Positions 21,950 to 23,490 of a stretch of 64,000 nt of DNA are shown piece by piece. Positions within the stretch are counted from its first letter, which is position 1; the number at the start of each line of letters is the position of its first letter. The notes under the pieces were generated by a model. The model saw only the letters and a list, made by a program, of their open reading frames with translations, was not told the DNA's origin and ran no database searches. The stretch is from Thermoanaerobaculales bacterium. GTDB taxonomy: Bacteria > Acidobacteriota > Thermoanaerobaculia > Thermoanaerobaculales > Sulfomarinibacteraceae. The translations under genes were made by a program, and so were the position numbers. The stretch lies in the NCBI GenBank assembly GCA_025456145.1, contig JALOLD010000006.1, positions 62,001 to 126,000 on the forward strand, given 5' to 3'.

Positions 21950-22828
21950 TCAATCTTCCTCGTCCTCGGTCTCATGACCGACCAGAGAATCGAAGACCTC
22001 GCGTCGACCGACCCCGAGCCGGTCGGCGGCGGCCCTGATCGCCCGCGTCCGCGGCAGTCCGGCGGCGATCGCGTCGTCGTACGCCTCACGGATCTGCCGG
22101 GCGTCGACGCCCCGGTCGACCTCGACCCGGTCGTCCGGACCGACGACCAGGACGTACTCGCCGCGCGGCCGGGCGACCTCGCCGCCGACGGCGAGCTCGC
22201 CGAGGGTCGCGGTCACCGCCCGCTCGAACCGCTTCGACAGCTCGGCCAGGAGCGTCGCCGGGCGGTCTCGACCGAGGCCCGCCGCCAGGTCCTGAAGCTC
22301 GGCCGCGAGACGGTGCGGCGAGAGCAGCACGACGAGGGTCCAGGCCACCCCGGAGAGCTCCTCGATCCGCCGGCGACGCGCCGCGGCCCTCGCCGGCAGG
22401 AACCCGACCAGGGTGGCGGGCAACGGCGGCTGACCCGAGGCGGCGAGGGCCGCGGTGAACGACGACGGCCCGGGCACGCTCGCCACCGGCAGGGCCTCAC
22501 GACGCACCGCCCTGACCAGACCGAAGCCCGGATCGGACAGCACCGGCGTGCCGGCGTCGCTCATCAGCACCACCGATCCTCCCGTGCGGAGGACGTCGAG
22601 GACCCGTTCGAGCCGCCGGTCCTCGTTGTGCTCGTGAAAGCTCAGGAGCCGGCCGGTCGCCGCCACCCCGATCCGACCGAGCAGGCTCCGCGCGCGACGG
22701 GTGTCCTCGGCGAGGATCGTCGTCGCGCCGGCCATGACCTCGGCCGCGCGCGGCGACAGATCGGCGATGGTGCCGATCGGCGTGGCCACGATCCACAGGG
22801 TTCCGGGCGTCCGTTCGACCGGAGACAC
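21950..22828 (-). CDS. rsmI: 16S rRNA (cytidine1402-2'-O)-methyltransferase RsmI
   Basis: 292 residues. LWIVATPIGTIADLSPRAAEV is the N-terminal tetrapyrrole-methylase-fold motif, AEDTRRARSLL follows, SFHEHNE is the next conserved block, and VVLMSDAGTPVLSDPG and PVASVPGPSSFTAALAASG are near-invariant in RsmI. The C-terminal helix-turn-helix-like part (GLPRTRAIRAAADRLGVGRREVF) is the usual RsmI_HTH. The GTG start at 22828 has no Shine-Dalgarno and lies 6 nt from an extended -10, suggesting leaderless translation. It methylates C1402 of 16S rRNA using SAM. Confidence 0.93.
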   Translation of the reverse strand: MSPVERTPGTLWIVATPIGTIADLSPRAAEVMAGATTILAEDTRRARSLLGRIGVAATGRLLSFHEHNEDRRLERVLDVLRTGGSVVLMSDAGTPVLSDPGFGLVRAVRREALPVASVPGPSSFTAALAASGQPPLPATLVGFLPARAAARRRRIEELSGVAWTLVVLLSPHRLAAELQDLAAGLGRDRPATLLAELSKRFERAVTATLGELAVGGEVARPRGEYVLVVGPDDRVEVDRGVDARQIREAYDDAIAAGLPRTRAIRAAADRLGVGRREVFDSLVGHETEDEED

Positions 22829-22830
22829 GT

Positions 22831-22843
22831 TGCTATGATACCA
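22831..22843. promoter_or_regulatory. Bidirectional extended -10 element shared by rsmI and the SurA-like gene
   Basis: The plus strand reads TGC TATGAT, the minus strand TGG TATCAT, on the same 13 bp. Each hexamer is 5/6 to consensus with a TGn extension. Exactly 6 nt separate each hexamer from a GTG start (22846 on plus, 22828 on minus), so +1 would be the first base of each start codon. The whole divergent intergenic region is 17 bp. Confidence 0.65.
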
Positions 22844-22845
22844 GG

Positions 22846-23490
22846 GTGAGGACCGCTGCAGCAGCGCTCATCCTGCTGATTACGGGCCAGTTGGTCGGCG
22901 CACAGCCGAGCGGCCCGATGATCGTCGAGGAGGTCGTCGCGGTGGTCGACCGGACGCCCCTGCTGCGCAGCGACATCGACCTCGCCGAGCTCCTCGATCT
23001 CGTCGACCGGCCGCCCGGCGAGGGCGAGGAGGCCTACCGCTCCGCCCTGCTCGACGCGAGGATCCAGCTCGAGGTCCAGTTCCGCGACCTCGAGGCCTCG
23101 GGGGTCCTCTTCCGTCTCGACCTCGACGTGACCGGCGTCCGCCGGTCGCTGCTCGAGGCGGTCGGCGGGCTCGAGGCGGTCGGCCCCGAGCTTCGGGCTT
23201 CGGGTCTCGGCGACGCCGACATCGACGAGCTCGCCCTCCGGATCTGCGCGGTCAATGGCTACGTCGAGCAGCGGCTGCGACCGAGGGTCAGCGTCGGCAT
23301 GGCCGAGATCGAGGCCGCCTATCAGGAGCTCGTGATCGCTCTCGCCACGAGCGGAGAGCCGGCCCCACCCCTCGCCGAGGTCCACGGCCGGCTCCACAGC
23401 GTGATCACCGAGCGTAAGCTCAACGACGAGATCGAGCGATGGGTGGAGCGGGCCCTCGCCGAGCGCGAGGTCACTCGGTTCGTGCGCTGA
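22846..23490 (+). CDS. SurA N-terminal-domain-like periplasmic protein without a PPIase domain
   Basis: 214 residues with a Sec signal peptide (MRTAAAALILLITGQLVGAQP). VEEVVAVVDRTPLLRSDIDLAELL matches the opening strand and helix of SurA_N chaperones, and the C-terminal helix (GRLHSVITERKLNDEIERWVERAL) matches the segment that packs back on that domain. No parvulin domain is present, so it is about half the length of SurA. A periplasmic outer-membrane-protein chaperone role is inferred. The GTG start lacks a ribosome site and fits a leaderless transcript. Its 3' end overlaps the converging slt gene by 20 bp. Confidence 0.7.
   Translation: MRTAAAALILLITGQLVGAQPSGPMIVEEVVAVVDRTPLLRSDIDLAELLDLVDRPPGEGEEAYRSALLDARIQLEVQFRDLEASGVLFRLDLDVTGVRRSLLEAVGGLEAVGPELRASGLGDADIDELALRICAVNGYVEQRLRPRVSVGMAEIEAAYQELVIALATSGEPAPPLAEVHGRLHSVITERKLNDEIERWVERALAEREVTRFVR

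Follow-up and report, generated by a model that had tools for sequence, protein, structure and literature searches.

A 17-bp gap between divergent rsmI and SurA-like genes in a Thermoanaerobaculales bacterium as a probable bidirectional promoter of two leaderless messages

In Escherichia coli, 19% of RNAs arise from bidirectional promoters whose -10 element is shared and near-symmetric, and 24% of bidirectional promoters are located between divergent genes, giving rise to two mRNAs (Warman, Grainger; PMC12825309, PMC10268837). The two starts of such promoters are most often separated by 18 bp, the commonest spacing because -7T and -11A then pair reciprocally, and separations of 10 and 23 bp are also common; in the commonest form a T at -18 is frequent, not obligatory (PMC12825309, PMC10268837). 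Occupancy by one polymerase at a time is a general property of these promoters, and among five E. coli examples repression was found only with one direction strongly activated (PMC12825309, PMC10268837). A second body of work concerns leaderless genes, which were predicted in three of three Acidobacteria at a mean of 13.3% and in which a TANNNT motif precedes the start codon by about 12 bp (Zheng 2011, PMC3160421). In Deinococcus, -10 elements positioned 6-7 bp from the start codon act as promoters (Zhong 2025, PMC12340547), in a paper with no mention of divergent or bidirectional cases. Leaderless genes led by such TA motifs are common in high-GC bacteria (PMC3160421, PMC12340547).

The locus described here lies in a window of 64,000 nucleotides, the whole stretch of DNA that was analyzed, and consists of a 17-bp gap (22829-22845) flanked by rsmI (21950-22828, minus strand) and a divergent SurA-like gene (22846-23490, plus strand). 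Its plus strand reads CAC (22826-22828), GTTGC TATGATA CCAGG, and GTG (22846-22848). Within it is a 13-bp near-palindrome, TGCTATGATACCA (22831-22843), which we confirmed can be read, as the initial annotation had proposed, as two overlapping extended -10 elements, each exactly 6 nt from a GTG. The element facing the SurA-like gene is TGC TATGAT (22831-22839, plus strand), with its TG at 22831-22832 and its hexamer at 22834-22839, followed by the 6-nt spacer ACCAGG and the GTG at 22846. The element facing rsmI is TGG TATCAT (22835-22843, minus strand), with TGG at 22843-22841 and the hexamer at 22840-22835, followed by the 6-nt spacer AGCAAC and the GTG at 22828. The opposite-strand elements have 5 bp in common, and positions 22835 and 22839 are used by both strands in a reciprocal -7T/-11A pairing that is kept in eight genomes. 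Deduced from the spacing, transcription is predicted to start at 22846 (plus) and 22828 (minus), 18 bp apart. T at -18 is absent from both strands, C being present at 22828 for the plus strand and opposite 22846 for the minus strand, as is expected with a G at +1.

The rsmI gene has a GTG start and encodes a predicted 16S rRNA (cytidine-1402-2'-O)-methyltransferase of 292 aa, whose Pfam TP_methylase match (9.3e-28) is well over the cut-off; its match to the RsmI equivalog model TIGR00096 (1.4e-47, residues 11-280) scored 162.4 bits, slightly short of the cut-off of 167.9. The gene on the other side, also with a GTG start, encodes a secreted protein of 214 aa with a signal peptide. Searches of Pfam, NCBIfam and the PDB by sequence produced no significant match to it, so that a fold comparison was needed. 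Its structure model (pLDDT 87.7) has a mostly helical core with short strands, and the best PDB matches found by Foldseek were to E. coli SurA (9hg9, 5.8e-5; 8pzv, 1.2e-4; TM 0.53-0.66). As modeled, the product has the SurA N-terminal/core chaperone fold, which agrees with its earlier designation as an envelope chaperone. Neither the model nor Pfam revealed a parvulin PPIase domain in the protein, which is therefore SurA-core-like rather than a full SurA. Of the 19 family genomes in which rsmI was found, 18 have the gene in a divergent arrangement with it, and the adjacency of the two genes is thus more widespread than the 17-bp layout. As a separate observation, the signal-peptide codons of the SurA-like gene at window positions 22867-22900 (CTCATCCTCATGGCTGTCAGTCACTTC) are nearly invariant as DNA in relatives of one genus (g5), compared with about 45% identity at fourfold-degenerate sites elsewhere; an overlapping constraint upstream of rsmI is a possible cause.

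The best match to TTGACA at the -35 position is one of six bases on the plus side and two of six on the minus side, in accordance with the earlier claim that neither -35 is consensus; both -35 regions fall within the coding sequence of the opposite gene, and no conserved -35 was found, relatives reaching at most three of six bases of TTGACA. The claim that both genes are without a ribosome site also stood, as no Shine-Dalgarno sequence is present at normal spacing for either. An AGG abuts the GTG of the SurA-like gene at 22846 and is too close to serve as a Shine-Dalgarno sequence, and the rsmI side is without any such motif. No ATG, GTG or TTG occurs between the upstream in-frame stop and the GTG over 36 codons for the SurA-like gene and 13 for rsmI, and the two GTG starts are hence not annotation choices. 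A TANNNT lies 6 nt ahead of the start codon on both sides, within the 6-7 nt by which leaderless genes are recognized. Both rsmI and the SurA-like gene are probably leaderless, as had been proposed from the coincidence of predicted transcript start and start codon.

We consider it likely, at a probability of roughly 80%, that the gap is a bidirectional promoter composed of overlapping extended -10 elements with both mRNAs leaderless, a reading that draws on its sequence, its geometry and its conservation in relatives. Because the two elements overlap, the gap could be bound by RNA polymerase facing either way, with no need of a -35 element. Transcription would begin on the G of each GTG, with the consequence that both messages would lack a leader, and each would be translated from its 5'-terminal GUG. 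The outcome would be that an envelope chaperone and a housekeeping rRNA methylase are expressed together at a basal, unregulated level, and not a switch.

The double extended -10 in this gap is not due to chance. In a genome of 70% GC, TGNTATNAT has three copies in 351 kb (both strands together), two of which are the gap itself, and the 13-bp element, TGNTATNATANCA, is present as a single copy in the whole 4.56-Mb genome. A search of 396 Acidobacteriota genomes for the pattern that includes the GTGs, CACNNTGNTATNATANCANNGTG, found it in two, in each case at the rsmI/SurA-like locus. When 351 kb of the genome was sampled and analyzed with a crude gene caller, TANNAT before in-frame starts had a sharp peak at 6 nt (10 versus 1.4 in the scaled other-frame control), and Shine-Dalgarno-like sites outnumbered the TANNAT signal.

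Relatives were represented by 20 genomes of the family, all of them draft metagenome assemblies; contigs C8 and C9 of G000 (L135, L136) are of identical size (8706 bases), which may be chance or an artefact of assembly. The alignment that the initial annotation had suggested as a check bore out its expectation, in that both hexamers and both 6-nt spacings are conserved in an identical 17-bp layout in seven genomes of two genera (G000, G001 and G002 of the window's own genus, and G012, G015, G017 and G019 of g5). In a third genus (g3), G004 has an 18-bp gap with 7 nt on the SurA-like side and 6 nt on the rsmI side, and the 13-bp element is kept as TGNTATSATANCA in eight genomes across the three genera. 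In the gap, 12-16 of 16 positions are identical, compared with 29-62% at fourfold-degenerate sites in the same genomes, and RsmI proteins are 56-73% identical among layout-carrying genomes. The invariant or nearly invariant columns are G.CACg.TG.TAT.ATA.CAG followed by GTG; those that vary are the N of each TGN, the hexamer center and the discriminator bases. These free columns are the ones that two extended -10 elements predict, and the conserved bases are those that both elements need. In addition, rsmI has no possible start other than its GTG, whose spacing is exactly 6 nt in eight genomes. The aligned sequences show a 17-bp rsmI/SurA-like layout held by selection across genera. A longer, unconserved gap in relatives had been named beforehand as a finding that would speak against the proposal, and such gaps do occur in the more distant genera of the family; g2, g4, g6 and g7 have either a longer gap or no double 6-nt geometry. 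As judged from these genomes, the 17-bp arrangement is therefore lineage-restricted, being confined to part of one family.

Natural variants of the layout bear on two other explanations of the gap. About 175 bp lies between the genes of G006, each of which has its own 6-nt element (TACGAT-ATCCGG-GTG and TACACT-GGCGGC-GTG) without a palindrome, and in G009 the promoters face each other, with TATCAT-N6 ahead of a start codon both ways. G010 and G014 have only the SurA-like half, TGGTATGAT-N6-GTG, having lost the rsmI half. G005 and G007 have 7 nt on the SurA-like side and do not keep the 6-nt spacing of rsmI. In genus g7 the SurA-like gene has a leader containing GGAGG. Such variants are in line with two promoter elements for which sharing is optional. 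Apart from these comparisons, we observed that the order of the promoters in G009 (L014) is swapped. Toward rsmI, TGCTATCAT-N6-GTG begins a leaderless mini-ORF some 20 codons long, the end of which overlaps the ATG of rsmI in the sequence ATGA, and the 5' ends of the two divergent transcripts would overlap each other.

The palindrome could instead be the operator of a dimeric transcription factor controlling both genes, with its likeness to -10 elements secondary or overlapping. Perfect 13- or 15-bp palindromes are present in G004, G015, G017, G012 and G007 (CTGNTATSATANCAG), and the site is unique in the genome, as would be the case for a dedicated regulator; furthermore, the free-N bases are complementary in about five of ten genomes compared with an expectation of one quarter, although this is a small count from related genomes. 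However, the conserved bases are the -10 positions, locked 6 nt from each GTG, and, were the -10 elements set aside, neither gene would have a visible promoter. No regulator gene adjoins the gap. Moreover, half-sites stand alone in G010 and G014, and the genes of G006 keep a 6-nt-spaced TANNNT without a palindrome, so that two promoter elements are favored over a dimeric operator, and we regard the operator as unlikely. Another explanation is that only the promoter toward the SurA-like gene is real, with rsmI transcribed from elsewhere and TATCAT a by-product of symmetry. Retention of TATNAT 6-7 nt from the GTG on the SurA-like side in more genera (g9, g4 and g6) is in keeping with this. Nevertheless, the sole possible start of rsmI and its exact spacing argue against it, as do the new 6-nt elements on the rsmI side in G006 and G009, where the genes or their promoters have separated, and we judge it highly improbable.

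A bidirectional promoter shared by two leaderless genes also raises the issue of competition, since the initial annotation had held that expression of the two genes could be mutually exclusive. According to this idea, polymerase occupying the gap in one orientation shuts off the other gene, and ribosome maturation would vary inversely with chaperone supply. The shared base pairs mean that one polymerase fits at a time, and in E. coli the partner direction is repressed once the other is activated. Yet all five of the E. coli bidirectional promoters tested were too weak at basal level to compete, and at this locus the two sides hardly differ and have no known activator site. Competition in E. 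coli arises only upon activation, making mutual exclusivity here possible but unsupported, and the separation of the two genes in relatives indicates that any coupling is dispensable. We therefore find such a switch quite unlikely. The stronger proposal, in which a 17-bp element with neither -35 nor UTR is under selection as an obligatory either/or choice, rRNA maturation being inverse to chaperone supply, seems to us very improbable; if it were true, 17 bp would be close to the minimum length of DNA that can serve two genes.

A parallel to the probable bidirectional promoter was found in Actinobacteria, in which rsmI is divergent from a PMT-family gene at 22 of 27 loci examined, all of them in Microbacterium or its family. 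Like the acidobacterial locus, the Microbacterium one (L091-L125) is a divergent rsmI pair with overlapping -10 elements and a TANNNT close to both starts (6-7 nt before GTG or ATG, in gaps of 22-23 bp), and both of its genes look leaderless. It differs in that the partner is a protein O-mannosyltransferase, there is no extended TG pair, and the hexamers overlap by 2 bp, with predicted starts 23-24 bp apart. The two layouts probably arose independently. In Actinomycetes, rsmI (L151-L175) often has [CG]AGGAT 6-7 nt before the ATG or GTG, a motif outside the strict TANNNT scan and possibly a leaderless -10 with its first T replaced.

As a family-wide class, the 18-bp double-leaderless layout was rejected, as the 20 genomes had 17 sites, seven of them the rsmI locus, versus 34 for the reversed pattern, a control made imperfect by the unequal frequencies of TA and AT; likewise, the layout was not enriched in 15 Actinobacteria (3 versus 13 in the control). 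For the 23-bp type the counts were 17 versus 4 in the same number of Actinobacteria, about 99 versus 43 (summed from the table) in 60 Actinomycete genomes, and slightly over control, about 29 versus 19, in the acidobacterial family. The approximately twofold Actinomycete excess, together with the Microbacterium pair, suggests that promoters shared by two leaderless genes may form a class that recurs.

The gap would combine a symmetric -10 bidirectional promoter with leaderless genes, in a layout about as compact as the two allow, and its shared, half-lost and separated variants provide a clean test case for the regulatory effect of sharing a -10. The component phenomena are already known, since an 18-bp start spacing is the commonest published layout and leaderless genes were predicted for Acidobacteria. 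The new part is a conserved case with both messages predicted to be leaderless, as judged from the open-access literature, and an earlier description could exist. The locus resembles the E. coli-type bidirectional promoters in its shared -10, its predicted 18-bp separation of starts, its -7T/-11A pairing and in not needing a good -35. It is unlike them in that both mRNAs would be leaderless, so that the promoter would occupy the entire intergenic gap, in having an extended TG on both sides, in its G at +1 and non-T at -18, and in being a promoter known by sequence alone. With the TA-led leaderless genes it has in common a hexamer whose first T is 12 bp from the GTG and the absence of a Shine-Dalgarno sequence, and it is unlike them in placing two such genes, rsmI and the SurA-like gene, head to head on one element.
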